Shown in pieces: positions 8,467 through 44,579 of a stretch of 64,000 nt of DNA. The stretch is from Archangium violaceum. Lineage in GTDB: Bacteria; Myxococcota; Myxococcia; Myxococcales; Myxococcaceae. Position numbers and translations under genes: made by a program. Positions within the stretch are counted from its first letter, which is position 1. Every line of letters begins with the position of its first letter. The notes under the pieces are model-generated. The model did no database searches. It saw only the letters and a program-made list of their open reading frames with translations, and had not been told where the DNA came from. The stretch spans positions 6,430,001-6,494,000 of the forward strand of contig NZ_CP069396.1 of the NCBI RefSeq assembly GCF_016887565.1, given 5' to 3'.

Positions 8467-8608
8467 TCGGAAGGTATACAGCACGCGAAGTGCTTGATAC
8501 CCTCACTGGGTCGGGCTGGACTGATTTCCTGGTCTTTGCTACAAGCTTCCCGTTTACCCATCATCCGAGAATCACCAGCGTGAGCCTCCCCCGCGCTGTA
8601 CCAAGACC

Positions 8609-12157: not shown

Positions 12158-13995
12158 CGGAGCCAGACGTCGTGAAAGGACCCGGGACCGGTCGCTGGTC
12201 CGTCGTCGCGGAGCGGGTGGCCTCGCTCAAGAACCTCCTGCCGCTGCTGCGCATGGTCTGGGCCTCGGGCCGTGGGGTGGTGGTGGCGAACCTCGTGCTG
12301 CGCCTGGTCGCGGCGCTGGTGCCCGTGGCCGTGCTGGCCGTGGCGCGATGGATCGTCGATGGCGTGGTGGCCGCCGTGGGAGCCCACCAGGGGATGACGC
12401 CGCAGCTGGCCCGGCTGGTCGCGCTCGAGTTCGTCCTGGCCGCGGTGGGGGCGCTCCTCGGGCGCCTCATCCAATACTTCAACATCCTGCTCGCGGAGAA
12501 GTACACGCGGCACGCGAGCCTCCAGTTGATGGACCACGCCTCGCGGCTCGACCTGGCGACCTACGAGGATCCCTCCTTCTACGACCGGATGGAGCGGGCG
12601 CGTGTGCAGGCCACGGATCGGATCGTGACGGTCGAGATGATCGCCCGCTTCCTGCAGCAGGCGGTCACCACGGTGAGTCTTGGCATCGGCATCCTGGTGT
12701 TCTCCCCGTGGCTGTTGTTGGGCATCGTCATCTGCCTGGTGCCGGCGGCCGTGGCCGAGGCGCGCTTCGGGGCCCGCATCTACGCGCTCAACTTCCGGCT
12801 CACGCCCAAGCGACGCGAGCTCGACTACCTGCGCCAGCTGGGTGCGAGCAAGGAGAGCGCCAAGGAGCTGAAGATCTTCGGCCTGAGCCCGTTCCTCCGG
12901 CACCGCTATGAGCAGTTGTCGGGTGAGCTGCTGGGCGAGCTGGTGACGGTGTGGCGGCGGGCCATCGGCGGCCTGTCCATGCTGTCGGTCCTGGGGGTGC
13001 TCGGCTACTACGGCGCGTACGCGTTCGTCGTCTACGAGGCGGCACGCGGCGAGCTGAGCGTGGGCTCTCTGGCGTTCCTGACCGGTGCGATCGTCGCCGC
13101 GAACCGGACGTTCCAGGAGATGTTCTCCACCGCCGTGGGGATCGCCGATCAGTCCCTGTACCTCAAGGATCTGCTGAGCTTCTTCTCCCTGAAGCCGACC
13201 ATCCGGTCCGGTGAACGGGCGCTCAAGGTCCCCCGCCCGATACGCCAGGGTTTCGAGTTCCGGAATGTGACCTTCAAGTACCCGGGCCGGGTGGAGCCAG
13301 TCCTCCAGGGGGCGAGCTTCCACTTGAGGCCGGGAGAGCGGCTCGCGCTGATCGGGGAGAACGGCCAGGGCAAGACGACGATCGTCAAGCTGCTGATGCG
13401 GCTCTACGATCCGACCGAGGGGCAGATCCTGCTCGATGGCGTGGATCTGCGCGAGTACGACATCGAGGACCTGTGGCGCGAGATGGGCGTCATCTTCCAG
13501 GACTTCGCCCGCTACGACATGACGGCCGCCGACAACATCGCGGTGGGGCGCATCGAGCAGCGGGGTGACCGGGCGCTCATCGAGGAGTCGGCGCGCAAGA
13601 GCCTGGCCAACACGGTGATCGACCGTCTGCCCGGAGGGTACGAGCAGATCCTCGGCCGCCGCTTCGAAGGGGGCGTCGATCTCTCGGGAGGAGAGTGGCA
13701 GAAGCTCGCGCTCTCGCGGGCGTACATGCGGGACGCGCAGGTGCTCGTCCTGGATGAGCCGACGGCGGCGCTGGACGCGCGAGCCGAGCTGGATGTGTTC
13801 ACCCACTTTGGCGAGCTGGCGCGGGGCAAGATGGCCCTGCTGATCTCGCATCGCTTCTCCACCGTGCGGATGGCGGACCGCATCCTCGTCCTCACGGGGG
13901 GAAGAATCGTCGAGGAGGGCAACCACGAGCAGCTCATCACGCTGGGGGGGCGCTACTCGACGATGTACGAGCTACAGGCATCACGCTACCGTTGA
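12154..13995 (+). CDS. ABC exporter, fused permease and ATPase (NdvA/MsbA-like)
   Basis: A 613-residue half-transporter. Six membrane helices occupy roughly residues 30-330 (for example VVVANLVLRLVAALVPVAVLA). The nucleotide-binding domain has Walker A GENGQGKTT, Q-loop FQDFARYDMT, signature LSGGEWQKLALSRA, Walker B VLVLDEPTAALD and the H-loop ISHRFSTV. It would work as an inner-membrane homodimer. Its ATG overlaps the stop of the glucan synthase-like gene, so the two are translationally coupled. Cyclic glucan exporters NdvA/ChvA have the same layout and size (about 590 residues), which makes glucan export the most likely job by context. Substrate cannot be read from sequence. Confidence 0.9.
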   Translation: MTEPDVVKGPGTGRWSVVAERVASLKNLLPLLRMVWASGRGVVVANLVLRLVAALVPVAVLAVARWIVDGVVAAVGAHQGMTPQLARLVALEFVLAAVGALLGRLIQYFNILLAEKYTRHASLQLMDHASRLDLATYEDPSFYDRMERARVQATDRIVTVEMIARFLQQAVTTVSLGIGILVFSPWLLLGIVICLVPAAVAEARFGARIYALNFRLTPKRRELDYLRQLGASKESAKELKIFGLSPFLRHRYEQLSGELLGELVTVWRRAIGGLSMLSVLGVLGYYGAYAFVVYEAARGELSVGSLAFLTGAIVAANRTFQEMFSTAVGIADQSLYLKDLLSFFSLKPTIRSGERALKVPRPIRQGFEFRNVTFKYPGRVEPVLQGASFHLRPGERLALIGENGQGKTTIVKLLMRLYDPTEGQILLDGVDLREYDIEDLWREMGVIFQDFARYDMTAADNIAVGRIEQRGDRALIEESARKSLANTVIDRLPGGYEQILGRRFEGGVDLSGGEWQKLALSRAYMRDAQVLVLDEPTAALDARAELDVFTHFGELARGKMALLISHRFSTVRMADRILVLTGGRIVEEGNHEQLITLGGRYSTMYELQASRYR

Positions 13996-30174: not shown

Positions 30175-30202
30175 TTCACTCTCCGGAAAAAATGGTTAAT
30201 AT
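30175..30202 (+). promoter_or_regulatory. Candidate promoter for the acyltransferase gene
   Basis: An AT-rich patch in otherwise GC-rich sequence contains TTCACT (30175-30180) and TAATAT (30197-30202) separated by 16 bases, an approximate housekeeping -35/-10 pair (four of six matches each). If real, transcription would start after 30205, placing the ATG at 30192 outside the message and favouring the start at 30285. Confidence 0.3.
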
Positions 30203-30284
30203 GTCCACCAACGCTGTAGAGATTCAGCCGGGCTGTCCGAAGCCGCTTGTGTGCGGGGCAGGACACTCCAGAGCGGGAGTGGGC

Positions 30285-31340
30285 ATGCGGCGGACCTTCG
30301 AGGAGTCCCTGATGCGTCACGAGGATCAGGCGGATCGGGACGAGGGCCCGTGCCGACCGGTCTTCGTCTTCTCGGGCCAGGGCTCGCAGTGGACGGGCAT
30401 GGGGCGGGCGCTGCTGGAGTCGCCGGTATGCGCCCCGGTGCTGGAGGCCTGTGAGGCCGAGGTCCAGCGGCACATGGGCTGGTCGCTGCGGGAGGCGCTG
30501 ACGGCGGAGGGCGCGCGCCTGGGCGACATCGAGGTGAGCTGCCCGGCCATCGTGGCGATGGAGATCGCGCTGGCGGCGCTGTGGCGCTCGTGGGGCGTGG
30601 AGCCGGCGGCGGTGGTGGGGCACAGCATCGGCGAGGTGGCGGCGGCGCACGTGGCGGGGGTGCTCTCGCTGGAGGACGCGATGCGCGTCATCTGCCACCA
30701 GGGCCGCATCATCGGGCGCCTGCGAGGGCAGGGGGCCATGGCGGTGGTGGGCCTGCCCTGGGCGCGGGCCGGCGAGGTGCTGCCCGAGTTCGAGGGCCGG
30801 GTGTGGCGGGCCATCCACGCGAGCCCCGACTGGACGGTGCTGGCCGCGGAGCCGGAGGTGCTGGAGGAGGTGTTGGTGGCGCTGCGCCGGAAGGGCGTGC
30901 CGGCCCGGCGTGTCGACTCGGAGGTGGCGGCGCACTGGCCGAAGGTGGATCCGCTCCGCGGCGAGCTGCGCGGGCTGCTCGAGGAGCTCCGCCCCGGCCC
31001 GGAGCGGCTGCCGGTGGTCTCCACGGTGACGGGCGGCACGCTCGCGGGAGCGCGGTTCGACGCGGACTACTGGGTGCGCAACCTGGCCGAGCCGGTGCTG
31101 TTCCGCGAGGCGGTGGATGTGCTGCTCGGCGCGGGGCACGACGTCTTCCTGGAGGTCAGCCCGCACCCGCTGGTGAAGCACTCGCTGGAGTCGTGCCTGG
31201 AGCGGGCGGGACGTCGCGGGACGCTGCTCGTGTCGCTGCGGCGGGGCAGGGCGCCCGGCCAGGAGATGCCGGGTGCGCTGCGCACGCTGTCCGAGCTGGG
31301 TCCTCGGTGCCGGCGCTCGGCGCTGGCGAACGTGGCCTGA
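30285..31340 (+). CDS. Stand-alone polyketide-type acyltransferase
   Basis: About 351 residues of the FabD/PKS acyltransferase fold. VFVFSGQGSQWTGMG opens the domain, VGHSIGEVAAAHVAG carries the catalytic Ser114, and His217 in SEVAAHWPKVDPL is the second catalytic residue; GHDVFLEVSPHPLV closes it. The specificity tetrapeptide before the histidine is VAAH, neither the HAFH of malonyl- nor the YASH of methylmalonyl-specific domains. No ketosynthase or carrier protein lies nearby, so it could act in trans on a distant assembly line. The ATG at 30285 follows GGGAG; an in-frame ATG at 30192 would add 31 residues of non-domain sequence. Confidence 0.85.
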   Translation: MRRTFEESLMRHEDQADRDEGPCRPVFVFSGQGSQWTGMGRALLESPVCAPVLEACEAEVQRHMGWSLREALTAEGARLGDIEVSCPAIVAMEIALAALWRSWGVEPAAVVGHSIGEVAAAHVAGVLSLEDAMRVICHQGRIIGRLRGQGAMAVVGLPWARAGEVLPEFEGRVWRAIHASPDWTVLAAEPEVLEEVLVALRRKGVPARRVDSEVAAHWPKVDPLRGELRGLLEELRPGPERLPVVSTVTGGTLAGARFDADYWVRNLAEPVLFREAVDVLLGAGHDVFLEVSPHPLVKHSLESCLERAGRRGTLLVSLRRGRAPGQEMPGALRTLSELGPRCRRSALANVA

Positions 31341-31472
31341 GGGGGCTGCGCGAGCAGGGCCCCGAGCGGGGGAGCGGGCGCTCGGAGCCTCACCCTTGGA
31401 AGGGCGGGGAGGGGCCGCGCTCGGAGTGTGCCATCCGGGCCCAGGGTCCTCATCGTTTCCTCGAGGGTGGTC

Positions 31473-34400
31473 ATGACCCGGCACAACGACGACAGCCAGG
31501 GGACTCCGTTGGAAGCGCGGCCTGTCTCCGAGGGAAGGGATTCGTCCGACTTCGGGGACTCCTTCCTGCGCGAGGTGAGCCAGTTCTCCCTGGCCTTTCC
31601 GGCGCCCCGGCCAGGAGAGCGCCTCGGGGGACGGGATGGCAGGCGCTTCGAGATCCTCGGGAGGCTCGGAAAGGGAGGCATGGGGTTGGTCGTCCGCGCC
31701 CGTGACGAGCTGTTGCAGCGCATCGTGGCGCTCAAGTTCATCTCCTCGGGCCGGGAGCTCACGCGGGAGTCGTTGGACCAGCTGATCCAGGAGGAGGCCC
31801 GGCTCGTGGCCCAGCTCGACCACGAGAACATCGTCCGCATCTTCGATGTCTCCGAATGGAAGGGCACTCCCTTCCTCATCATGGAGTACCTGGAGGGACA
31901 GTCGCTCGACACGCTGCTGCGGCGCGGAGCACTGGAGCCCCGGCGGGCCCTGCGCATCCTGAGCGACGTCACGGCCGGGCTGGCGCATGCCCACTCGCGC
32001 CAGGTCCTCCATCGGGATCTCAAGCCGAGCAATGTCTTCATCCTCCCGGACGGGCGGGTGAAGCTGCTCGACTTCGGCCTGGGTGGGTTCGCCTCCTCGC
32101 TCGGGTTCGACCTGTTGAAATCGGGCACGCCCGCCTTCATGGCACCGGAGCAATGGCGGGGGCAGCCGCAGGACATGCGCACCGACACCTGGGCGGTCGG
32201 GCTGCTGCTGTACCAGATGCTCACCGGGGAGCTGCCCCATCCCGCGGGGAACCTCCGGATGCTCCGCAAGCGGGTGCTCTCGGCCGAGCCCGTGCCGTCG
32301 GTGCGCGCGCGCCATCCGGATCTGCCCGAGACGGTGGACCGGTTCCTGGCACGGGCGCTCGCCAAGGATCCCTCCCGGCGCTTCCAGAGCGCCCTCGAGA
32401 TGTATGAGCGGCTGCGGGTGCTGGAGTGGAGCCTGGCCCCCTCGGACGAGGCGACGCCTCCACGCTTCACGCCCCACCGCCGGCAGGTGACGCTGGTGTG
32501 CTGCCGGCTCACGGGGCATCTGGCGTCCCTGGATCCCGAGGACCTGAGCGACGTGCAGGCGGCGTTCCACCAGGCCTGCTCGCGCATCCTCGAGCATCAC
32601 GGGGGCTGGGTGACGCTCCGCATGGGTGACGAGGTGCTGGGCTGCTTCGGTTATCCCCTGATCCGGGAGGAGGACGTCGTGTGCGCGGTGCGGGCCGCGC
32701 TCGAGCTCACGCGGATGGTGGAGGAGCTGCCGCGGGCCTTCCAGTCCGAGCTCGCGGTCCAGGTGGGCGTGCATACGGATCTGGTGGTGCTGGACGTGTC
32801 CGAGCCCTCCGCGCCGAGTGGACGACACTCGCCCTCCATTCGCGGCGAGGCGCCCCACCTGGCGAGATGGTTGGCGAGGCAGGCGGAACCCCAGACGGTG
32901 GACCTGAGCGAGAACACTTGGCAGGGCGCTCAGGGAAACTTCGTGACGGAGCCGCTGGGCCAGCGGTTCTTCCAGTCGTCGCTGGGGCCGATGCGGGTGG
33001 GTGTCCACCGGCTGCGGAGCGAGCGGCCGGAGACCACCCGCTTCGGGAGGGCGCTGGCCCGGGGCCTCACGCCGCTGGTGGGCCGGAGCGCGGAGCTCCG
33101 CCAGCTCTTCGCCTGGTGGGAGGAGGCCCGGCGCGGACAGGGTACGGTGGTGCTGCTCAGCGGTGAGGCGGGAATCGGCAAGTCCCGGCTCATCCAGGAG
33201 CTGAGCGAGCACGTGGTTCACGAGGGGGGCGTCCTCGTGTCCAGCCAGTGCTGGCCACAGCTCAGCCGCAGCGCCTTCCATCCGGTGCTCGAATGGGTGA
33301 CGCACCTGGCCGCGCTGGAACCAGAGGCATCACCCGAGCGGCGGAGGGACCACCTGGAGGAAGTGCTGCGCTCCCTCGACATGCCCCTGCCGGAGAGCCT
33401 GCTGCTGCTCGGGCAGCTCCTGGGCCTGCCCCCTCGCGAGGAGCTGCCTCCGCTGCTGCTGTCTCCCGAGCAGCAACGCGCACGGACCCTGGAGACGCTG
33501 ACCACCTTGCTGCTGCGGCTGTCGGCGCGGCTCCCGGGGAGGCATGGACAGGGGCCGCTGCTCCTCGTGCTCGAGGATCTGCACTGGGTGGATCCCTCCA
33601 CGCTGCGCTTCCTCTCACGCCTGGGGGAGCTCATCGACGGCACCCGGTTGCTCCTGCTGTTGAGCGCTCGCCCCGAGCTGCGGCTCTCCTTGCGGCAGCA
33701 CCCCCGCTTCCACCTGCTCGTGCTCGATCGGCTCGCGGCGGACGAGACCGCGGAGATGGTGCGGCGGCTCATCGGAAACCGGCCCGAGCCGTCGGCGGAG
33801 ACGGTCGCGCTGCTGGTGCGGCGGACGGAGGGCATTCCGCTCTTCGTCGAGGAGATGACCCGCAGCATGGTGCTCACGCATGGCTCCCAGAGCACCGCGG
33901 AGGGCACGCTGCCCGTCACCTTGCAGGAACTACTCCTGGCCCGGTTGGATCCGCTCCCTCCCGAGCAGAAGGAGCTGGCGTGGAAGGGGGCCGTGATTGG
34001 CCGAGGCTTCACGGAGGCACAACTGGCCGCCCTCTCGGAGCGGGGTGGCTCCACGCTGAGGAGGGATCTCGAGGAGCTGGTCGAGGCGGGACTGCTCCTG
34101 CACACCGGAGAGGAGCCGGAGCTTCGTTACGAGTTCAGACATGCCCTCATCCAGGAGGCCGCCTACGAGTCCCTGGTGAAGCCTCGCAGGCGGCAGTACC
34201 ACCATCAGATCGCGGTGCTCCTGGAGCACCCGGTGTCGGGAGCTCCCACCGCTCCGCCCGAGCTGATCGCCCACCATTACACCCGGGCCGGGGAACTGCT
34301 CCCCGCCGTCCGGTACTGGGCCCTGGCCGGGGAGCTGGCCTTGAATCGCTCGGCGTTCGAGGAGTCCATCAGTCACCTGGAACAGGCGCTGCGGTTGTTC

Positions 34401-35699
34401 AAACGCTTGCCGGGAGCGGCCCGGCGCGTCGAGGAGGAGCTCCGGCTGCTGGTGCTGCTCGGCCAGGCCCTGATCGCCGCCCGCAACTACTCTGCGCCCG
34501 AGGTGGAGCAGCTCTACGCGCGCATCGCGCAGCTCTTCCATGACGTGAGGAACACGCCCATCCTCGTCTCCGCCAGCATGGGCCTCTTCAACCGGAACCT
34601 GATGCGGTTGAACTTCCCGCTGGCCCGCGAGCTGTCGGAGCAGATCGTCTCCCTGGGCCAGCGCGTCCACGAGCCCCAGCTCCGGGTGGTCGGCCGGTTG
34701 ATGGGGGGATCGAACTGCCTGATCCAGGGAGATGTTCTCGGAGCGGTGCCCCTGCTCGAGGAGGCCGTGGCCCTGGGGACCTCGGAAAGGGAGCGGGCAC
34801 CCCGGACGCTGGGCATGCTCGAGCCCGATCCGTTGGCCATGGCCCAGGCCTATCTGGCCCTGACCCTGACCCTCCGGTGCGAGCAGCGAGAGGGTCAGCG
34901 GCTCAGCGATTCCGCGCTGTGCCGCACCGAGCAGCTGGGCCACCCCTACACCTTCGTCCTGGTCAGCACCGTGACCAACGCCCTGTACCAGATGCGGTTC
35001 GACGCGCGGCGGGTGCTCGCGATGACGGAGCGGGAGGGCCTCATCTACGAGCAGAACCCGTCCCTGCGCGTGGAGTCGTGGATGCCCGTCCTGAGGGGAT
35101 GGGCGCTCGTGCTGACGGGCCAGCGGCGGGAAGAGGGCTACACCCTGATGCTCGAGGGGCTCGATCACCTGCGGCAGAACCACGCGGAGACGGGTTGGCC
35201 CTACCTGCTCTGCCTGCTCGCGGATGCGCGCGCGCGGCTGGGGATGATTCCCGAGGGTCTGGCGGCGGTGGCGGAGGGACTGGCCTGGGGCGAGCGGACG
35301 GGACAGCACCTCGAGGAGGCCGAGCTGTACCGGCTGCGAGGCGAGCTCCTGCTTCTCGATGGCGAGACCGCCAGGGCGGTGAACGAATTCCAGGAGTCCT
35401 CGCGGAGCGCCCGCCGATCCGGCGCCCGGTGTGTCGAGCTTCGGGCCACCTTGCGTCTGTGCCAGCTGCAGCGGGGGCAGGACCGGCTCCGCCACGCGGA
35501 GCGCCTGCTGCGGGACGCCCTCGCGCCCCTGCCACCGGGCCTCGACTCGCCCGAGCTCCGCGTCGCGAGGGCGCTGCTCGACGGACTCCAGGACGAGCAC
35601 TTCGACGAGCATGAGCTGGAGCGGCTCATGTCCGCCGCTCCCTGGGAGCTCGGTCACATCCGCGAAGGGTCTTCTCCAACTTTCATGGAACCACTCTGA
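31473..35699 (+). CDS. Ser/Thr kinase - class III cyclase-like - AAA ATPase - TPR fusion protein
   Basis: A 1408-residue multidomain signalling protein. Kinase: residues 59-320, glycine loop LGKGGMG, Lys88, HRDLKPSN with Asp182, DFG at Asp200, so it looks active. Cyclase-like domain: about 335-510, QVTLVCC then Arg345 where the first metal-binding Asp should be; the second (Asp386 in MGDEVLGCFG) is kept, so catalysis is doubtful. ATPase: about 550-850, LVGRSAEL, Walker A GEAGIGKSR at 564, Walker B LLLVLEDLHWVD. The remaining 550 residues are TPR-like helices. The layout resembles kinase/cyclase fusions of predicted peptide-modification (TOMM) systems and PknK-like regulators. The ATG at 31473 follows GAGGGTGG; a GTG at 31428 is in frame upstream. 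Confidence 0.9.
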   Translation: MTRHNDDSQGTPLEARPVSEGRDSSDFGDSFLREVSQFSLAFPAPRPGERLGGRDGRRFEILGRLGKGGMGLVVRARDELLQRIVALKFISSGRELTRESLDQLIQEEARLVAQLDHENIVRIFDVSEWKGTPFLIMEYLEGQSLDTLLRRGALEPRRALRILSDVTAGLAHAHSRQVLHRDLKPSNVFILPDGRVKLLDFGLGGFASSLGFDLLKSGTPAFMAPEQWRGQPQDMRTDTWAVGLLLYQMLTGELPHPAGNLRMLRKRVLSAEPVPSVRARHPDLPETVDRFLARALAKDPSRRFQSALEMYERLRVLEWSLAPSDEATPPRFTPHRRQVTLVCCRLTGHLASLDPEDLSDVQAAFHQACSRILEHHGGWVTLRMGDEVLGCFGYPLIREEDVVCAVRAALELTRMVEELPRAFQSELAVQVGVHTDLVVLDVSEPSAPSGRHSPSIRGEAPHLARWLARQAEPQTVDLSENTWQGAQGNFVTEPLGQRFFQSSLGPMRVGVHRLRSERPETTRFGRALARGLTPLVGRSAELRQLFAWWEEARRGQGTVVLLSGEAGIGKSRLIQELSEHVVHEGGVLVSSQCWPQLSRSAFHPVLEWVTHLAALEPEASPERRRDHLEEVLRSLDMPLPESLLLLGQLLGLPPREELPPLLLSPEQQRARTLETLTTLLLRLSARLPGRHGQGPLLLVLEDLHWVDPSTLRFLSRLGELIDGTRLLLLLSARPELRLSLRQHPRFHLLVLDRLAADETAEMVRRLIGNRPEPSAETVALLVRRTEGIPLFVEEMTRSMVLTHGSQSTAEGTLPVTLQELLLARLDPLPPEQKELAWKGAVIGRGFTEAQLAALSERGGSTLRRDLEELVEAGLLLHTGEEPELRYEFRHALIQEAAYESLVKPRRRQYHHQIAVLLEHPVSGAPTAPPELIAHHYTRAGELLPAVRYWALAGELALNRSAFEESISHLEQALRLFKRLPGAARRVEEELRLLVLLGQALIAARNYSAPEVEQLYARIAQLFHDVRNTPILVSASMGLFNRNLMRLNFPLARELSEQIVSLGQRVHEPQLRVVGRLMGGSNCLIQGDVLGAVPLLEEAVALGTSERERAPRTLGMLEPDPLAMAQAYLALTLTLRCEQREGQRLSDSALCRTEQLGHPYTFVLVSTVTNALYQMRFDARRVLAMTEREGLIYEQNPSLRVESWMPVLRGWALVLTGQRREEGYTLMLEGLDHLRQNHAETGWPYLLCLLADARARLGMIPEGLAAVAEGLAWGERTGQHLEEAELYRLRGELLLLDGETARAVNEFQESSRSARRSGARCVELRATLRLCQLQRGQDRLRHAERLLRDALAPLPPGLDSPELRVARALLDGLQDEHFDEHELERLMSAAPWELGHIREGSSPTFMEPL

Positions 35700-35784: not shown

Positions 35785-37812
35785 ATGCTGCCCCTTCGTA
35801 AACATCCAGCACTCGAGACTTCTTCTGGTGTGGAGCTGGCACCGTCCCGGGCCGAGGAGGCGAGGTGGCGGACCCTATTGAAGCGGGTGAAGGTCTACGG
35901 CTGGCTGAGCCTGACGGGAGCGCTCGCGGGCAGCGTGTACCTGTCACACCCTCGGCTCTTCGGCCGGTCGCGCTCCACGCTGTGCCGGAGCAGGGGGGCG
36001 GCCTGGGCCCTCCACTTCATCGAGGTCCCCATGATGGCCTGCATCTCCACCGTGGCCCTCTACGCGCTGCGCCGGTTCGATCGCACGACGGCTCGCCGGT
36101 TCTCGGAGCTCGTCGGACTGTCCAACATGGTGAAGCTGACGTTCTTCGGGTTCGAGAGCGCCGCCCTCATCGGCAGCTTCCCCCATGGCGCGAAGACGGA
36201 GGAGAAGCTCACCTACGTCGCGGGCGCGTTCCTGTTGCTGACCGGCACGGGCGTGGGCCTCTGGGTCCGGCTGGGAGTGCATGACTACTTCCACCCGGCC
36301 CTGGATCCGAGGTTCGCTCATCCCCAGACGGAGGAGGAGCTCATCCAGCTCGTCAAGCACGCCCGGGCTTCGGGCGTCCAGCTCCGCGTGCGCGGCTCGA
36401 CCCACTGCGTGCCCGGGGGCATCTACACCGACGACAGCGGACATCACATCAACGTGCAGCTCGACCGGTACACACGGATCGTCGGTTGGGACGAGGGGGC
36501 CAGGCGCGTCACCGTCCAGGCCGGTTGCCACCTGGGAGTGGATCCGCACGATCCCCTGTCCAACGAGGACAACAGCCTGCTGTCTCAACTCGAGGCGCGC
36601 GACTGGGCGCTGCCGGACCTCGGCGGCATCACCCATCAGACGGTGGGCGGTTTCCTGTCCACGGGCTCGATGGGAGGCACGGCACGGCACGACCTGGGCG
36701 CGGCCCTCGTGGGCATCCGCCTCATCGATGGGACGGGCAGGGTGCACGACCTGTCGCCCGGGGACGCGGACTTCCACGCCGCGGGCGTGTCCATGGGACT
36801 GCTGGGCATCATCTCCACGGTGACCTTGCAGTGCGAGCCCCGCTACGACCTCGTCGGCAAGCAGGTCACCTGCCGCACCCGCCAGTGCGCCATCTCGTTG
36901 TTCGAGCCTGGAGAGAAGGGCCTGCGGCACTTCTTCGAGACGAATGAGGACACCTATTCCCGGCTGCTCTGGTGGCCCCAGCGGGGCGTCGACAAGGTGC
37001 AGCTCTGGCGGGCGCACCGCGAGACCGGGACCGGGTCGGAGACCTACCGCCCCGCGCTCATCCGCAGACCCTTCGTCGCGATCCCTCGCGTCCTCCAGGT
37101 CCTCGTCAACCTGTTCTTCAAATTCATCGCGCACGATGATCCGCCCTACGGGTGGCTGACCGAGAAGGTGGTGCGCCTCGTCCTGAACGTCTTCGTCCCC
37201 AAAAAGGAGACGAAGGAGTTCCGGGGCTCCTGGCACGAGATCCTGCCGATGGACAATGGAGTCTCGGACGAGCTCGTCCCCACGGACTTCACCGAGTTCT
37301 TCATCGACATCGATCAGGCCGCGGAAGTGATGAAGCTGCTCGAGGGTTATTTCAATCCCGATCCCTCGGACAAGGAGGGGGTCCAGGACGCGAAGGGAAT
37401 GGGGCGCACCGGCCCGTATGCCTTCGAGATCTACGCGGGCTTCGCGAGCTCCTTCTGGATGAGCCCCAGCCATGGGAGGCACTCCATCCGGGTGGACGTG
37501 TTCTGGTTCCGCACGGACAAGGAGCACGCCCGGGAGAACTTCTACGAGCGGTTCTGGGAGCTGCTCGCGCCGTTCGGCTTCCGCCTCCATTGGGGCAAGT
37601 TCCTGCCGAAGCCAGACTCCCTGACGGGGGTCGAATACCTGCGCCGGCAATACCCCATGTGGGACAGGTTCATGGAGGTGCGCCAGCGCATGGATCCGGA
37701 TGGCGTCTTCCTGAGCAGGTATTGGAAGGAGCACCTTGGCATCGAGCCCGCCCTGGCGCGCTCGACGCCCGTGGGTAGTATCGCCTCCTCTTGCTCTGGG
37801 GAGTCCGCATGA
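35785..37812 (+). CDS. Membrane-fused FAD-linked oxidase (aldonolactone-oxidase-like)
   Basis: A 675-residue protein with two parts. Residues 35-190 hold about four membrane helices (VYGWLSLTGALAGSVYL, HFIEVPMMACISTVALYAL, KLTFFGFESAALIGSF, LTYVAGAFLLLTGTGVGLWV). From about 200 comes a PCMH-type FAD domain (VRGSTHCVPGGIYTDDSG, TVQAGCHLG, GITHQTVGGFLSTGSMGG) and a C-terminal lactone-oxidase domain ending MWDRFMEVRQRMDPDGVFL. Gulonolactone or arabinonolactone oxidases share this catalytic part. The membrane module in front is unusual. The ATG at 35785 follows TGGAG; a GTG at 35716 is in frame but less protein-like. Its stop overlaps the patatin start (ATGA). Confidence 0.85.
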   Translation: MLPLRKHPALETSSGVELAPSRAEEARWRTLLKRVKVYGWLSLTGALAGSVYLSHPRLFGRSRSTLCRSRGAAWALHFIEVPMMACISTVALYALRRFDRTTARRFSELVGLSNMVKLTFFGFESAALIGSFPHGAKTEEKLTYVAGAFLLLTGTGVGLWVRLGVHDYFHPALDPRFAHPQTEEELIQLVKHARASGVQLRVRGSTHCVPGGIYTDDSGHHINVQLDRYTRIVGWDEGARRVTVQAGCHLGVDPHDPLSNEDNSLLSQLEARDWALPDLGGITHQTVGGFLSTGSMGGTARHDLGAALVGIRLIDGTGRVHDLSPGDADFHAAGVSMGLLGIISTVTLQCEPRYDLVGKQVTCRTRQCAISLFEPGEKGLRHFFETNEDTYSRLLWWPQRGVDKVQLWRAHRETGTGSETYRPALIRRPFVAIPRVLQVLVNLFFKFIAHDDPPYGWLTEKVVRLVLNVFVPKKETKEFRGSWHEILPMDNGVSDELVPTDFTEFFIDIDQAAEVMKLLEGYFNPDPSDKEGVQDAKGMGRTGPYAFEIYAGFASSFWMSPSHGRHSIRVDVFWFRTDKEHARENFYERFWELLAPFGFRLHWGKFLPKPDSLTGVEYLRRQYPMWDRFMEVRQRMDPDGVFLSRYWKEHLGIEPALARSTPVGSIASSCSGESA

Positions 37813-39644
37813 CACGGTCGTTCTCCTGGTCGCTCGCGCTGGCGTCGCTCACGCTCTGTTCCTGCCACTTCGCGAGGACCGACTTCATCCTCGAGACGCT
37901 GAACAAGCCCGCGGAGAAGGGCGAGCCCGGGCCATCGGTGACGGTGACCGAGCGGGTGGGGCGGCTGACGAGGGATCACCTGGCCGACGCGTACCTGGCG
38001 CCGGCCACGGTGGCGGGCTGGATGTCGGAGCTGGGCAGGTCGCCCGCGCCCCTCGTCACCCTGGTGGACTGTCTGACCCACGCGGCGGGGGCCGACACCG
38101 GCCCCTGCTACCAGGGCTTCTTCGACACCGCGACGAAGTCGCCCTGGGGACTGCCCGAGGTACCCAAGACGGTGGAGCCCGCCGCTCCCGACGCGGCGGA
38201 GGTCGACGCGGCCCGCTTCCTGGCGAACGCCGTGTCGATCGCCCCCTCGCTGGCGGCGCTCCAGCAGGCCGTGGGCAAGCCGTTCGGCAAGGAGGAGCTC
38301 GAGAAGGGAATCCAGGAGGGGGCCGAGGCCGCCGCGCAGTACATCCATGCCCGCCGGTGGCACCGCGAGCTCCAGCGTCCCTCCACCGCGCTCGTGCTGA
38401 GCGGTGGAGCGGCCAACGGGGCCTTCTCCGCCGGGGCGCTCTGGCGGCTGCTGGGCATCCTCGAGCAGTGCCGGGGGAAGGCCACCCCCGAGGGATGTGG
38501 CGACGCGGGGATCGACCTGGTGGCCGGGGCCAGCACGGGCTCGCTCATCGGGACGCTGATCGATCTGTTCCACACGCCGGGACAGGAGCACGCCGCGCGC
38601 GAGCTGCTCGTGAGCAACTACACCTGCTCGGTGGAGTCGGACCTGTACTGCGTCAACTCGGCGTGGGACTGGGAGCTCGTGGACGATGTCCGCGGGCTGG
38701 TGCGCTTCGACGGCATCCAGAACAAGCTGAAGGCCGCCGTCACCCCCGCCATGCTCACCAACCACACGGAGCTCGTCTCCGTCTCCGTGGACTACGCCAC
38801 CGGTGACATCCAGGGCATCAGCGATCAGGATCCCTCGGACTTCCCCGCCACCGCGAGCGAAGCGGAGCGCGTCGAGGGCTTCATCCAGGCCGTCATGGCC
38901 TCCATCGTCGAGCCGGTGCTCGCGGAGCCGGTGGACTGGGTGCCCTCGAAGTCCGGCAGGATGCGCGGGACGTTCGTGGATGGTGGGGTGCGCTCGGGAC
39001 TGCCGTTGCTCCAGGCGGTGCAGCGGGGCGCCGAGCGCGTGCTGGTCATCTCCACCGCGGGGATCGATCCCGAGCGGGTTGCCAACCCACCGCATGCCTT
39101 CGGCGTGCTGATGAGGACGCTCGACCTGTTCGTCGCGCAGCCGCGGGTGGGCGAGGTCCAGCAGGGAGAGATGGCGGCCGTCGCGCGGCGCTTCACCGAG
39201 TACAACCTCTGCATGGAGCGGCTGGCGGGTGTCGCCTCGCGGGCGAACGTCACGAAGTTCTGCACCCGCACGGGCGCGGGCTTCTCGCCCCCCGCGCTGG
39301 TGGGCGGCGTCGAGGTCGCCACCAGCCCGTGGATGGGGCCCGCGCGCTTCGAGCAGGTGGCGTCGAGCTGGCGCAGCGCGTGGATGTACCGTCCCGAGGC
39401 CACGCTGGAAACCGCCTCGGGGTATGCCTTCACGCCCGAGGTGATGCGGCCGCTCTTCCTCCAGGGGGTGAGCACCTTCCAGGCCCGGTGCCAGGAGATC
39501 CTCCGGCTCTTCGAGATCCGCGGCACCCTCGCCGCCAACGAGTGCAAGAGGCCCGCCGAGGAGGTGCTGAAGCAGGCCGAGGAGACCTTCGCGCCCATGC
39601 GGCAGTGCATGGCGAACAAGCCGGAGCAACGCAAATGCCGGTGA
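37809..39644 (+). CDS. Patatin-like phospholipase lipoprotein
   Basis: A 611-residue lipoprotein. The N-terminus (MTRSFSWSLALASLTLCSC) is a signal peptide with a lipobox ending at Cys19, so it is probably anchored in the outer membrane. The patatin domain begins near residue 195: LVLSGGAANGAFSAGAL is the oxyanion loop, GASTG holds the nucleophilic Ser, and FVDGGVRSGLPLL the catalytic Asp of the Ser-Asp dyad. Expected activity is phospholipase/lysophospholipase. The N-terminal 190 residues and the Cys-containing C-terminus are not recognised. Its ATG overlaps the oxidase stop, so the two are translationally coupled. Confidence 0.9.
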   Translation: MTRSFSWSLALASLTLCSCHFARTDFILETLNKPAEKGEPGPSVTVTERVGRLTRDHLADAYLAPATVAGWMSELGRSPAPLVTLVDCLTHAAGADTGPCYQGFFDTATKSPWGLPEVPKTVEPAAPDAAEVDAARFLANAVSIAPSLAALQQAVGKPFGKEELEKGIQEGAEAAAQYIHARRWHRELQRPSTALVLSGGAANGAFSAGALWRLLGILEQCRGKATPEGCGDAGIDLVAGASTGSLIGTLIDLFHTPGQEHAARELLVSNYTCSVESDLYCVNSAWDWELVDDVRGLVRFDGIQNKLKAAVTPAMLTNHTELVSVSVDYATGDIQGISDQDPSDFPATASEAERVEGFIQAVMASIVEPVLAEPVDWVPSKSGRMRGTFVDGGVRSGLPLLQAVQRGAERVLVISTAGIDPERVANPPHAFGVLMRTLDLFVAQPRVGEVQQGEMAAVARRFTEYNLCMERLAGVASRANVTKFCTRTGAGFSPPALVGGVEVATSPWMGPARFEQVASSWRSAWMYRPEATLETASGYAFTPEVMRPLFLQGVSTFQARCQEILRLFEIRGTLAANECKRPAEEVLKQAEETFAPMRQCMANKPEQRKCR

Positions 39645-39869
39645 GCTCGGGGGACATGCGGAGCGTGGTGCACGCCATCGCCTTCGGAGCCCTCGTGCTC
39701 GATCTCGAGGGCCGGGCGGTGGGTCTCCACCTGGGAGGCTTCCAGGGCTTGAGCGTGTGCATGCCCATCCGTTGCATGACCAGGCGTCCAAGTTTTCCAG
39801 CAAGGCGGTGGGGCACCAGCTAGGCTCCCAGGTGGCGACTCATGAGCGCCCGTGAGAAGGAGCCATCCG

Positions 39870-42299
39870 GTGGTGCATGACGGACCGCATGCGAGCGTGC
39901 TGCTGGTGGACGGGCACCCGGAAAGCCTCCAGGCGCTCGTCTCCACGCTCGAACCCCTGGGCCAGCGTCTGGTGAAGGCGGCCTCGGGCAGGGAGGCGAG
40001 CCAGCGGGTCCTCCACGAGGAGTTCGCCCTCATCCTCCTGGACGGAGACGGACTGGAGGATGAGGGGCTGGAGACGCTCCGCCAGCTTCGGGAGCGTGGG
40101 CCTTCCCACTCCATTCCCGTGCTGCTCCTCACTGGAAATGGGGCGCCAGCCTTCGCACTCGAGGGCTACGCGCGGGGGGCGGTGGACTGCCTCGTCAAGC
40201 CCTGGGCGCCGGAGCTGCTCCGGGCCAAGGTGTCCGCCTTCATCGCGCTGCACCGGCGGCGTGGGGAGTCCCGCCCTTCCGACGGGTTGCTCCAAGAGGG
40301 CGAGAGACGGTTCCGGCGCGTCTTCGAGTCCGACATGATGGGAGTGCTCTTCTCTGATCTCGAAGGGCGGATCCTCGACGCCAATGATGCGTTCCTCTCC
40401 ATGGTGGGCCATGGCCGCGAGGAGCTCGAGTCCGGTCTCGTCCGCTGGGACACCATGACTCCGCCGGAGTGGCACGCGACCAACGCCCGGGCCATTCACG
40501 AGCTGAAGACGAAGGGCGTGGCCAGCCCGTTCGAGAAGGAGCTCTTTCGCAAGGATGGCAGCCGCGTGCCGGTGCTGATGAACAGCACGCACCTGGAGGA
40601 GCAGGGGAGGAACATCACCTTCGCCCTGGACATCACGGAGCGGAAGCGGGCCGAGGCGGCCCTGGCCGAGCGCGAGGAGCGGTTGCGCTTCATCCTCAAG
40701 GCGGTGGGGCTCGGCCACTGGCAGTTGGAGCTCTCGACGATGAGGATGGAGTCGTCCGAGGGGTGCAAGGCCAACTTCGGACTGCCGCCCGAGAGCGATC
40801 TGTCCTCGTACGAGAAGCTGCGCTCGCTCATCCATCCGGAGGACAGGGACTCCGTGGCCGAGGCGGTGGAGCGGGCCATCACCACCCGGTCCGACTACTC
40901 GGCGGAGTACCGCGTCGTGCCGCCGGGCGGTGGCGTGCGCTGGGTGGCGGCGCGCGGGCGCGTGGTGTGCGCCGCGGACGGTACGCCGCTGCGCATGGTG
41001 GGCATCACCCTGGACATCACGGACCGGATGCGTGGTGAGGAGAAGCTCGCCTTCCTGTCCGAGGCGAGCCGGTTGCTGACCGAGTCGATGGAGCCGGAGG
41101 AGACGCTTCAGCGCGTGGCCCGGCTCGCGGCCGCGACGGTGGCGACGTATTGCATCGTGGATCTCCGTGAGGAGGACGGGCGCATCCATCGGGTGGCCGT
41201 GGCGCACCGGGATCCGGAGCTGGAGGCACACATCCGGCGGATTCCGCCCTACTCAGCGGAGCGCGGAGCACCCCGGTCCGTGGTCGAGACGCTGAACCAG
41301 GGCCGCAGGAAGCTCATCGCGAGCATCACGCCCGAGCAGAGGCTCGCGTCGGCGGTGAGCCCCGAGCACCTGGCGCTCATGGAGCGGCTGGACGCGCGCT
41401 CGGTCGTGCTGGTGCCGATGCAGTCGCGGGGGAGGAAGTGGGGCGTCATCACGTTCGCCCGGGCCGGTGTGGTCCAGGGGTTCGATGAGCGCGACCTGGA
41501 CATGGCCGAGGAGCTGGCGGGCCGGGCGACCACCGCGCTGGAGAACGCCGAGCTGCTGCGCACGACCCGGGAGGCGGTGCGGCTGCGGGACGAGTTCCTC
41601 TCGGTGGCCAGTCACGAGCTCAAGACGCCGCTGACGCCGTTGAGCCTCAAGCTCCAGGCGATGGCGCGTTCGGTGAAGAGCGGAGGGTTGGAGGCGCTGG
41701 AGCGGCGGTTGCCGGGAGACGTGGAGGTGATGCGCCGGCAGGTGCGGCGTCTGTCGGACCTGGTGGATGATCTGCTCGACGTGTCGCGGATCAGCACGGG
41801 CCGGCTGAAGCTGGAGCTGGAGCAGGTGGACCTGGAAGCGCTGGCGCGCGAGGTGGTCTCCCGGTTCGAGTCGGAGGCGGAGCGGGTGGGGTGCCGACTG
41901 GAGCTGGGAGCGGAAGGCGCGTCGGTGGGGCAGTGGGACAGGCTGCGCCTGGAGCAGGTGATGACGAACCTGCTCTCCAACGCCATCAAGTACGGGGCGG
42001 GCACTCCCATCCACATCCGGGTGGCGGGAGGGGAGTCACGTGTGCGGCTCGTCATCCGGGACGAGGGCATCGGGATCGATCCGGAGGCCCGCGAGCGCAT
42101 CTTCGGGAAGTTCGAGCGGGCGGTGTCCGAGCGGAACTACGGAGGGCTCGGGTTGGGCCTCTACATCACGCGGCAGATCGTGGAGGCGCTCGGAGGAGAC
42201 ATCCGGGTGGAGAGCGCGCCGGGAGCAGGCGCGACCTTCACCGTGGATCTACCGAGGGCCCCTGTGAGCCGGGAATCGCTCCGGGGCAACCTCAGGTGA
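39870..42299 (+). CDS. Soluble hybrid histidine kinase: receiver-PAS-PAS-GAF-HisKA-HATPase
   Basis: About 809 residues with no membrane segment. Residues 5-125 are a receiver domain (VLLVDGHPESL, phospho-acceptor in LILLDGDG, Lys in VKPW); PAS domains follow at about 145-265 (RRFRRVFESDMMGVLFSD) and 270-395, then GAF at 405-565. The kinase core has the H-box SVASHELKTPLTPL, N-box NLLSNAIKYG, G-boxes DEGIGIDPEARERIFGKF and GLGLGLYITRQIVEALGG. An N-terminal receiver means it probably takes a phosphate from another kinase. A GTG at 39870 with AAGGAG seven bases upstream is chosen over the GTG at 39852. The 225 bases before it, after the patatin gene, hold no convincing gene. Confidence 0.9.
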   Translation: MVHDGPHASVLLVDGHPESLQALVSTLEPLGQRLVKAASGREASQRVLHEEFALILLDGDGLEDEGLETLRQLRERGPSHSIPVLLLTGNGAPAFALEGYARGAVDCLVKPWAPELLRAKVSAFIALHRRRGESRPSDGLLQEGERRFRRVFESDMMGVLFSDLEGRILDANDAFLSMVGHGREELESGLVRWDTMTPPEWHATNARAIHELKTKGVASPFEKELFRKDGSRVPVLMNSTHLEEQGRNITFALDITERKRAEAALAEREERLRFILKAVGLGHWQLELSTMRMESSEGCKANFGLPPESDLSSYEKLRSLIHPEDRDSVAEAVERAITTRSDYSAEYRVVPPGGGVRWVAARGRVVCAADGTPLRMVGITLDITDRMRGEEKLAFLSEASRLLTESMEPEETLQRVARLAAATVATYCIVDLREEDGRIHRVAVAHRDPELEAHIRRIPPYSAERGAPRSVVETLNQGRRKLIASITPEQRLASAVSPEHLALMERLDARSVVLVPMQSRGRKWGVITFARAGVVQGFDERDLDMAEELAGRATTALENAELLRTTREAVRLRDEFLSVASHELKTPLTPLSLKLQAMARSVKSGGLEALERRLPGDVEVMRRQVRRLSDLVDDLLDVSRISTGRLKLELEQVDLEALAREVVSRFESEAERVGCRLELGAEGASVGQWDRLRLEQVMTNLLSNAIKYGAGTPIHIRVAGGESRVRLVIRDEGIGIDPEARERIFGKFERAVSERNYGGLGLGLYITRQIVEALGGDIRVESAPGAGATFTVDLPRAPVSRESLRGNLR

Positions 42300-42380: not shown

Positions 42381-44579
42381 CTACCCCGGAGTGAACCAGA
42401 GCACGGACAGCGGGGGCAGCGTCAGCACGGCCGAGGCATCCTGGCCGTCCCAACCCTGGGGCTCGGTGTGGATGCGCCCCTTGTTGCCGATGCCCGAGCC
42501 GCCGTAGTCCTGGGCGTCCGTGTTCAGCAGCTCCACGTAACCGCCGTGCCGGGGGAAGCCGACGCGGTAGCCCTCGCGGGGCACGGGTGACAGGTTGGCG
42601 ATGCACACCACGTGGCCCCCCGGCTGCCTCGAGCGCCGCACGAAGGCCAGCACGTTGGCCGCCGCCGAGTCTGGCTGCAACCACTGGAAGCCCAGCGGCT
42701 CGCTGTCCGCGTCGTACAGCGCCGCGTGGCTCCGGTAGAGCCTGTTCAGGTCCGACATCATCGTCTGGATGCCCGCGTGGCCCGGCTCTCCCAGCAGGTG
42801 CCAGTCCAGGCTCCGGTCGTTGCTCCACTCGCCGGGCTGGCCGAACTCGCCACCCATGAAGAGCAGCTTCTTGCCCGGGTGCGCCCACATCCACGCCAGC
42901 AGCGCTCGCAGGTTCGCGCGCTTCTGCCACGCGTCTCCCGGCATCTTCCCGTACAGCGAGCCCTTGCCGTGCACCACCTCGTCATGGCTCAGCGGCAGCA
43001 TGAAGTGCTCGCTGAAGGCATACAGCAGACCGAAGGTGAGCTGGTTGTGGTGGTGCTGCCTATAGATGGGATCCTTCGAGTAGTACGTCAGCGTGTCGTG
43101 CATCCAGCCCATGTTCCACTTGAAGTGGAAGCCGAGGCCCCCTTCGCTGGTGGGCTGGCTCACCTTGGGCCACGCGGTGGACTCCTCGGCGATCATCACC
43201 GCGCCCGGGAACTTGCGGCCCACGGTGTCGTTGAGCTCGCGCAGGAAGGAGATGGCCTCCTCGTTCTCGCGGCCACCCCAGCGGTTGGGGATCCACTCGC
43301 CGTGCTTGCGGCTGTAGTCGAGGTAGAGCATCGACGCCACCGCGTCCACACGCAGACCATCGATGTGGTACTCCTCCAGCCAGAAGAGGGCGTTGGCGAT
43401 GAGGAAGTTGCGCACCTCGTTGCGGCCGAAGTTGAAGACGTAGGTTCCCCAGTCCGGCTGCGTGCCCTGGCGCGGGTCCGCGTGCTCGTAGAGGGCCGTG
43501 CCGTCGAACTGGCCCAGCGCATGAGCGTCCCGGGGGAAGTGCCCCGGCACCCAGTCCAGCAGCACGCCAATGCCCTGCTCGTGCAGGTAGTTGACGAGGT
43601 ACCGGAAGTCATCCGGGTGCCCGAAGCGCGCGGTGGGCGCGTAGTAGTTGCCCACCTGGTAGCCCCAGGAGCCTCCGAAGGGGTGCTCCGCCACCGGCAT
43701 CAGCTCCACGTGCGTGAAGCCCATCCGCTTCACGTAGTCCGCGAGCGCGGGCGCCATCTCCCGGTAGGAGAGGGACCGGTCCCCGTCCTCGATGACGCGC
43801 CGCCACGAGGCCAGGTGCACCTCGTAGACGCTCCACGGCTCGTGGTGCACGTTCTTCGTGGTGCGCCCCGTCATCCACTGCTCGTCCGTCCACTGGAAGT
43901 GGTTCAGGTCGTGCACCACCGACGCCGTGGCCGGAGGCACCTCCGTGCGGAAGGCGTATGGATCCGACTTCAAGAGGCGCCCTCCGGCGCCCGGGCGGAT
44001 CTCGAACTTGTAGCGCGTGCCCTCGCCGACCTCGGGGATGAAGAGCTCCCAGATGCCCGAGGCCCCCATGCGCCGCATCGCGTGCAGCCGGCCGTCCCAG
44101 CTGTTGAAGTCACCCACCACGGACACGCCCGCGGCCGTGGGCGCCCATACGGCGAAGGCCACGCCGCTGATGCCGTGGTGGTGGATGGGGTGCGCCCCCA
44201 TTCGCTTCCACAGGTGCTCGTGCCGGCCCTCGCCGGCGAAGTACAGATCCATGTCGCCCAGCGTGGGCAGGAAGCTGTACGGGTCGCGCAGGGTGAAGGT
44301 CTTGTTGCCGGGGTACTCCACCTCGAGCAGGTAGTTGAAGGGCTCCGTCTTGCCGTTGAGCCGGGCCTCGAAGACGCCTGCCTGCCGGTGCGTCATGGGG
44401 ATGCGCCCGCCGAACTCCGGCACCACGTGGATGGAGACCGCGTCCGGACGGTAGGCCCGCACCACCATTCCATCCCCGTCCGGGTGGATGCCCAGCACGC
44501 GGTGGGGCTCGGGGTGCCGCAACTCCACCACCTGCTGCAACTCCGCGTCCACCTGCTGCCGATCCATCGGCTTCTTCAC
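42381..44579 (-). CDS. glgB: 1,4-alpha-glucan branching enzyme
   Basis: A 732-residue full-length GlgB. Residues 1-125 are the extra N-terminal domain, 130-230 the CBM48 module (GVAFAVWAPTAAGVSVVGDFN minus ends), then the GH13 barrel: VELMPVAEHPFGGSWGYQ, nucleophile Asp412 in LRVDAVASM, acid/base Glu465 in MIAEESTAW and Asp533 in LSHDEVVHGKGSL. It introduces alpha-1,6 branches into the linear glucan made by GlgE. The GTG start overlaps the maltokinase stop (GTGA). It is the last gene of the glgE-treS-mak-glgB unit. Confidence 0.96.
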   Translation of the reverse strand: MKKPMDRQQVDAELQQVVELRHPEPHRVLGIHPDGDGMVVRAYRPDAVSIHVVPEFGGRIPMTHRQAGVFEARLNGKTEPFNYLLEVEYPGNKTFTLRDPYSFLPTLGDMDLYFAGEGRHEHLWKRMGAHPIHHHGISGVAFAVWAPTAAGVSVVGDFNSWDGRLHAMRRMGASGIWELFIPEVGEGTRYKFEIRPGAGGRLLKSDPYAFRTEVPPATASVVHDLNHFQWTDEQWMTGRTTKNVHHEPWSVYEVHLASWRRVIEDGDRSLSYREMAPALADYVKRMGFTHVELMPVAEHPFGGSWGYQVGNYYAPTARFGHPDDFRYLVNYLHEQGIGVLLDWVPGHFPRDAHALGQFDGTALYEHADPRQGTQPDWGTYVFNFGRNEVRNFLIANALFWLEEYHIDGLRVDAVASMLYLDYSRKHGEWIPNRWGGRENEEAISFLRELNDTVGRKFPGAVMIAEESTAWPKVSQPTSEGGLGFHFKWNMGWMHDTLTYYSKDPIYRQHHHNQLTFGLLYAFSEHFMLPLSHDEVVHGKGSLYGKMPGDAWQKRANLRALLAWMWAHPGKKLLFMGGEFGQPGEWSNDRSLDWHLLGEPGHAGIQTMMSDLNRLYRSHAALYDADSEPLGFQWLQPDSAAANVLAFVRRSRQPGGHVVCIANLSPVPREGYRVGFPRHGGYVELLNTDAQDYGGSGIGNKGRIHTEPQGWDGQDASAVLTLPPLSVLWFTPG

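Follow-up and report, generated by a model that had tools for sequence, protein, structure and literature searches.

A membrane-fused flavoprotein of Archangium is paired with an upstream kinase/cyclase gene and only occasionally with a patatin lipoprotein

Introduction

Aldonolactone-type oxidases are familiar from vitamin C and polyol chemistry. In a 64,000-nucleotide stretch of an Archangium genome (the window; G000:C1:6430001-6494000, in a single-contig genome of 13.2 Mb), a flavoprotein of this type, here called A (675 aa; 35785..37812, + strand), has membrane helices fused in front of its catalytic domain, and its stop codon overlaps the start of a gene for a patatin-like phospholipase lipoprotein, here called B (611 aa; 37809..39644, +). 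What would such an enzyme do at the membrane, and does it work with the lipoprotein encoded behind it? A first-pass annotation of the window had proposed that A and B form one envelope module in which a lipid is oxidized and then hydrolyzed. Comparison across 195 genomes of the phylum, including the window genome (G000) and its sister genome (G005), does not bear out the coupling to the patatin that the window, taken by itself, had suggested. We favor, with belief and doubt in about equal measure, a reading in which A is an inner-membrane-anchored, cytosol-facing flavo-oxidase of an alcohol that carries covalent flavin adenine dinucleotide (FAD) and is associated with a kinase, the patatin being incidental. 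Genome searches scored the best 6 (distribution of A and B), 19-20 (helix module) or 37 (kinase) candidates per genome, and the absences given below hold within these.

A four-helix membrane module precedes the catalytic domain of A

Two Pfam families are recognized in A above their curated cut-offs, FAD_binding_4 (residues 177-324, 59.9 bits) and ALO (residues 346-649, 60.6 bits), and together with fold comparison they delimit a FAD/ALO catalytic domain at residues 172-654 (36298..37746, +). The modeled domain is best matched by an ancestral GalDH (8qmy; Z 36.8, root-mean-square deviation (rmsd) 2.6 over 412 residues), followed by alditol oxidase (8ot8, Z 36.6) and DprE1 (4aut, Z 31.1). A therefore has the domain pair and the VAO/PCMH fold of the aldonolactone oxidoreductases (plant GalDH, animal GULO and fungal ALO) and of bacterial alditol oxidase, and it falls below the cut-offs of the NCBIfam subfamilies TIGR01678 (116.8 of 396.8 bits) and TIGR01679 (125.9 of 292.25 bits).

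The region ahead of this domain forms a four-helix membrane module (residues 28-168; 35866..36288, +), as judged from AlphaFold and homologues. Helices are modeled at residues 22-54, 70-96, 103-131 and 138-169, with mean confidence (pLDDT) per 10-residue block of 70-94 over the helices and 56 in the loop between helices 1 and 2, and the module modeled alone also folds (mean pLDDT 85). The hydropathy of these helices is modest when taken alone, as their best 19-mers score 1.08, 1.52, 1.10 and 1.56 against a peak of 1.75 in the soluble domain; the corresponding maxima among homologues are 1.84, 2.46, 2.03 and 2.41. The case for four predicted helices in A is thus carried by the homologues and the models, not by its own hydropathy.

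The first-pass annotation had pointed to a mispredicted start as a possible source of the helices. In G005, the ATG and the residues after it align with those of A (MLPLRKHPALETSS / MPPLRQHPALETSS). Moreover, the ratio of nonsynonymous to synonymous substitution (dN/dS) between A and its G005 counterpart is 0.44 over the helices (residues 28-168) and 0.50 over the FAD domain, and the codon-position G+C of A is coding-like. Given the aligned start, the purifying selection on the helices and the coding-like composition, the start of A is sound and the helices are no start-site artefact; the annotation's description of four N-terminal helices before an ALO-type enzyme holds.

The substrate-clamping arginine of aldonolactone oxidoreductases is a tyrosine in A

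An excerpt of PMC11099136 describes Arg388 and Lys456, conserved among aldonolactone oxidoreductases, as holding the substrate alkoxide, and GalDH position 113 as the oxygen gatekeeper, which is Gly in the oxidases (fungal ALO and metazoan GULO) and Ala in the dehydrogenase (GalDH). The same excerpt reports that GULO is membrane-associated and that sequence analysis gave no clear residues responsible. In our alignment A retains the catalytic lysine within its HWxK motif (Lys605, equivalent to Lys456; 37597..37599, +) and has Tyr550 in place of Arg388 (37432..37434, +), so that the Arg-Lys pair is incomplete; the same tyrosine aligns with the Arg of the E-x-R motif in alditol oxidase 8ot8. From the aligned residues, A also seems to have what a covalent-flavin oxidase needs, with the oxidase-type Gly280 (36622..36624, +) at position 113 and His207 (36403..36405, +) in the FAD loop. 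By analogy, His207 is predicted to be the covalent flavin attachment residue.

Among 20 members of this subfamily, Tyr550 and Lys605 are present in all (20/20 each) and Gly280 and His207 in 19/20 each. Asp571 is likewise kept in 19/20, with Asn in the remaining one, and the G022 protein is the exception at Gly280, His207 and Asp571 alike. Both outgroup rows have Arg at the place of Tyr550 and keep Gly280 and His207. A tblastn search of plasmids with A returned 9 records at 22-34% identity; three of the nine were aligned, and they carry Arg at the Tyr550 place (3/3), preceded by Glu in two.

Because the lysine, glycine and histidine are conserved and the arginine has become tyrosine, A appears to keep the flavin chemistry without the sugar clamp. 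Since it is that arginine which holds sugar lactones by their C2 alkoxide, an aldonolactone or alditol substrate is unlikely; the substrate is most likely another alcohol, plausibly or even probably one that is hydrophobic or membrane-borne. FAD would probably be covalently bound through His207, and Gly280 suggests that O2 serves as electron acceptor. The replacement of the arginine in all 20 subfamily members agrees with the annotation's view that ascorbate-type metabolism is not at work here, and makes such chemistry unlikely. The neighbors of unfused paralogues give a hint, no more, of non-sugar chemistry: among three loci scanned, a SnoaL-like gene is present in two (one of which also has a DUF2378 gene) and a non-specific endonuclease gene in the third.

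The helix module has been joined to the enzyme at either end

A profile of the module, which is about 145 residues long, detected 8 intact copies in 7 of the 195 genomes (E<=1e-63). All eight are fused to a FAD/ALO enzyme, and no free-standing copy was seen among the candidates scored. No Pfam family matched the module at cut-off. The fusion is as unusual as the annotation had supposed. The module is N-terminal in six proteins (G000, G005, G001, G003, G123 and G129) and C-terminal in two (G123 and G124), where it follows the FAD domain in proteins of 790-808 aa. Seven positions (W28, H55, H77, P82, F121, L128 and G158) are invariant in 8/8 copies. In an eighth genome, G032, the C-terminal form has lost most of its module, of which 85 bp and 26 bp are left at 96% identity, and the module is gone altogether from the G149 enzyme, whose place in the tree is inside the N-fused clade; in both, the enzyme reading frame is still intact. 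The G032 remnant lies at L052:9172-9278 and shows two deletions, the reference for its identity being the intact G123 copy.

We built a tree (LG+G4) of 22 FAD domains, comprising the 20 subfamily members and 2 outgroup sequences; a G103 paralogue with an out-of-frame gene call was for that reason kept out of the tree and of the residue count over the 20 members. The N-fused clade has a support of 100, as does a clade uniting the C-fused proteins with an unfused protein of G002, and unfused clades lie between the two, with some deep nodes being weak (18-47). As the N- and C-terminal forms occupy separate branches, the module was apparently fused twice, and two separate fusions are the simplest reading. 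The alternative, a single ancient module followed by rearrangement and several losses, is less simple.

The charge pattern of the module bears on its orientation. The N-terminal segment (3-7 Lys/Arg) and the loop between helices 2 and 3 (2-6 Lys/Arg) are basic in 8/8 copies, and the loop between helices 1 and 2 contains a Cys pair in 5/8 copies, those five having 0-1 Lys/Arg. The FAD domain of the C-fused forms stands ahead of the helices. The basic N-terminus and second loop, combined with an even number of helices, would make the FAD domain cytosolic whichever end carries the module, with the enzyme anchored in the inner membrane.

Affinities of the module with known membrane domains, among them DoxX, EXPERA and MerC, were considered and gained no support. 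Against solved structures nothing rose above helical-bundle noise (best Z 13.8, rmsd 3.6, 139 residues). An EXPERA/TMEM97-like module, suggested by sequence patterns, found no Pfam match at E up to 10 and a best PDB sequence match of E 0.18 (a short FtsQ/lactose permease chain); EXPERA/TMEM97 was not among the fold matches listed, where absence excludes nothing. Kinship with DoxX, prompted by a doxX gene at the empty site described below, is unsupported (comparison probability 0.4%). Three marginal matches in the profile search (E 0.003-0.009; genomes considered G016, G163, G008 and G160) were judged to be chance, with gene lists viewed for G163 and G016. A plasmid search with the module gave no match, and a contig scan with A, which is pattern-based and reaches close relatives only, found only Archangium lansinium.

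An upstream kinase gene is the conserved partner of A

The gene upstream of A (31428..35699, +) encodes a Ser/Thr kinase with a class III cyclase-like stretch recognized by eye, an AAA_16 domain and TPR repeats; translation may in fact begin at an in-frame ATG further on, at 31473. Like the TOMM_kin_cyc kinase/cyclase fusion proteins, it aligns with nearly the whole of TIGR03903 (model positions 4-1266 of 1267), yet at 554.5 bits it stays below the cut-off of 705.75, and it is paired with a flavoprotein; a Pfam scan of nine window genes showed no TOMM biosynthesis family.

This kinase gene lies directly upstream of A in G000, G005, G003, G001, G123 and G149, that is, in 6/7 A orthologues, and is the conserved partner of A. 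In a search of 16 genomes, seven kinases shared 67% or more of their residues with that of the window, six of them directly upstream of A; the 10 genomes of this set that lack a kinase-linked A yielded none, and other kinases among the matches listed are at most 50% identical. The remaining, seventh kinase is a second G001 copy that stands next to, and divergent from, another ALO flavoprotein, one about 21% identical to A; G001 has just two PF04030 matches, and both are these kinase-neighboring flavoproteins. The locus of the second G001 kinase and its distant ALO flavoprotein, which has an E-x-G motif and no helix module, covers L141:12347-13891 and 7875-12203. A search for the same fusion and adjacency, which the annotation had recommended, thus gave a divided result: the fusion recurs in eight copies, the patatin adjacency in only 2/7 orthologues, and the conserved neighbor is a kinase that the annotation had left out.

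The position of the kinase-A pair also varies. G002 and G004 have only doxX and Uma2 genes, and no kinase, A or B, between the acyltransferase and glgB genes that flank the locus in the window. In G001, the pair lies between doxX and Uma2, and in G003 it precedes doxX; glgB lies on a different contig from the pair in G123 and G149. Because the pair occurs at different chromosomal sites, it appears to act as a unit, and the acyltransferase gene is a flank. The empty sites span L172:13838-18459 and L173:84-4678.

These comparisons suggest how the system might work. The VAO-fold catalytic domain would lie in the cytosol, seated on the four-helix membrane bundle, with FAD bound covalently via His207 and Gly280 admitting O2 to the reduced flavin. 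An alcohol, perhaps membrane-borne, may be held or delivered by the bundle. The kinase/cyclase/AAA/TPR protein and A would form a two-gene cassette at varying chromosomal sites, in which the kinase is predicted to sense a signal and then to phosphorylate A or control its use. Somewhat more tentatively than for the role of A itself, we propose that a previously undescribed module was joined twice, once per end, to a Tyr-substituted subfamily, and that its N-fused line became a relocatable kinase-oxidase cassette in Myxococcaceae acting on a substrate new to the family. A branch without the lactone-clamping arginine, a module apparently gained twice and one steady kinase together point to kinase-controlled membrane chemistry in myxobacteria.

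The patatin lipoprotein probably has a separate history

B is what the annotation described, a patatin lipoprotein with a full catalytic dyad. Its patatin domain (residues 195-403) is above the curated Pfam cut-off, and the oxyanion glycines G199-G200, the nucleophile Ser242 in GASTG (38532..38534, +) and Asp391 in DGG (38979..38981, +) are invariant in 33/33 aligned sequences, B included. By sequence reading, a lipobox, LCSC, occupies residues 16-19 (37854..37865, +), with Cys19 predicted to be acylated, and most homologues read SGC or GGC at the same or an adjoining position. B is intact and under selection (dN/dS versus G005 of 0.30). An excerpt of PMC3222651 counts patatin-like proteins of M. 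xanthus among those of the outer membrane.

The stop of A and the start of B do overlap in the window as annotated (ATGA, the ATG of B being at 37809); in the sister genome there is no overlap, and 9 nt separate the two. Close homologues of B occur in 42/195 genomes, comprising two Archangium genomes and 40 genomes of three other genera, where the Myxococcaceae patatin-like phospholipase lipoproteins are 58-64% identical to B over nearly the full length. The annotation had made its proposal depend on conservation of the pair, and the pair proved not to be conserved: 40 of these 42 genomes have no match to A at E<=1e-30. Conversely, five genomes with A (G001, G003, G123, G129 and G149) have no match to B at the same threshold, which held for G001 and G003 when the best 22 candidates were searched again. 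B adjoins A in the two Archangium genomes alone, both sister lineages. Distant homologues of B are present in G017 and G022, where the distant relatives of A lie on other contigs. At three other loci, the neighbors of B are a class I tRNA-synthetase-like gene with MiaE, a synthetase-like gene, and OsmC, bestrophin and DUF6068 genes. From its lipobox B is predicted to be exported, which puts it and the active site of A on opposite faces of the inner membrane, and the predicted topology speaks against the envelope module that the annotation proposed. B probably has a history apart from that of A and would have arrived downstream of the cassette in a single Archangium sublineage, where it is probably co-transcribed with it.

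Weighing alternative readings

The proposal that A oxidizes and B hydrolyzes an envelope lipid in a single module nonetheless has points in its favor. The 4-nt overlap in the window and the 9-nt spacing in G005 make coupled expression likely in these two genomes, and B keeps its dyad under selection. Against this stand the narrow adjacency, the many genomes with one partner and no match to the other, the unrelated genes beside B elsewhere and the predicted opposite compartments, and we regard such a module as improbable. A membrane-bound dehydrogenase, in which the bundle passes electrons to a quinone or a bound cofactor through two invariant histidines instead of to O2, is unlikely. H55 and H77 are indeed invariant in all eight module copies, and in its four-helix layout the module looks like generic cofactor-binding bundles, in matches that are not above noise and are as expected by chance for helical bundles. 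However, Gly280 is an oxidase-type residue, the enzyme frame stayed intact in G149 and G032 when the module was lost, and both histidines would be near the membrane face far from the cytosolic FAD if the topology is as predicted. Quite improbable, finally, is that A acts at the inner membrane on a lipid-linked sugar, as a DprE1-like oxidase. DprE1 (decaprenyl-phosphoryl-ribose oxidase) shares its fold with A and comes next in structural similarity, and a membrane-borne polyol would account for the anchor. Its own substrate is a lipid-linked sugar, a precedent for membrane chemistry, and it is not known to have membrane helices. Yet A reaches 33.5 bits in the DprE1 equivalog model NF053785, whose cut-off is 500, GalDH and alditol oxidase are closer, and no prenyl-sugar gene was recognized in the part of the neighbors scanned with Pfam.

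The kinase link could also reflect a chance or selfish neighbor pair without functional connection, which we consider rather unlikely. The pair lies at different sites and is missing from two congeners, and TOMM-type kinases are abundant enough (at least 14 matches in G000 and at least 27 in G001 at E<=1e-150) for adjacency to arise by chance. On the other hand, the pair is kept in three genera, in the same order and with short spacing, while the A proteins diverged to 55-84% identity with that of the window, and the seventh kinase likewise adjoins an ALO protein.

Against a kinase-associated, membrane-anchored oxidase, in turn, several observations have to be set. The kinase search covered 16 genomes chosen with the distribution of A in view (6 with a kinase-linked A, 10 without), and 37 candidates per genome were scored. 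The A orthologue of G129 (51% identical) has no such kinase and follows a fatty-acyl-AMP-ligase/condensation gene. The loss of the module in G149 and its near-complete deletion in G032 imply that it is dispensable to some members. The loop between helices 1 and 2 contains 5, 5 and 8 Lys/Arg in G000, G005 and G001, which blurs the topology call, and the AlphaFold alignment over the module consists of 8 sequences only. We still prefer the kinase-associated oxidase, in which control of A by the kinase is suggested by their linkage.

Flanking genes and further observations

A stand-alone acyltransferase gene (30192..31340, +) forms the left flank and is present in 6/6 Archangium genomes, with or without A. 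Because it precedes the kinase gene in four of them, it was considered as an operon member and rejected, as it occupies the same place in G002 and G004 without kinase or A there. Between B and the glgB gene that forms the right flank outside the unit (42381..44579, - strand) lies a gene for a hybrid response regulator/PAS/GAF/histidine kinase (39852-42299), which is missing at the equivalent place in G005.

An open-access literature search found nothing on the module-oxidase fusion or on the kinase-oxidase pair. In Table 2 of PMC6997564, a methyl-jasmonate transcriptome of an Archangium strain, transcripts for a TOMM kinase cyclase and an FAD-dependent oxidoreductase are decreased. An anti-phage role was set aside, since the PADLOC matches of the partner protein, as far as listed (the best 25 of 34), chiefly cover its kinase domain, and A and B have none. 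The TOMM-type kinase/cyclase genes expanded in G000 and G001 are scattered. At 13 other kinase loci of the window genome, judged from the starts of the gene sequences, there is no common downstream gene, and a repeated effector behind these kinases was likewise not seen.

The G129 locus (L142:2518-16712) contains the fatty-acyl-AMP ligase/condensation gene followed by the N-fused enzyme, with more large genes upstream on the other strand. Unfused Tyr-subfamily paralogues lie between small SnoaL-like and DUF2378 genes at L123:5129-7990, L124:6042-8921 and L126:4064-6917, these neighbors having been assigned by Pfam scan for L123 and being alike by sequence in L124 and L126.

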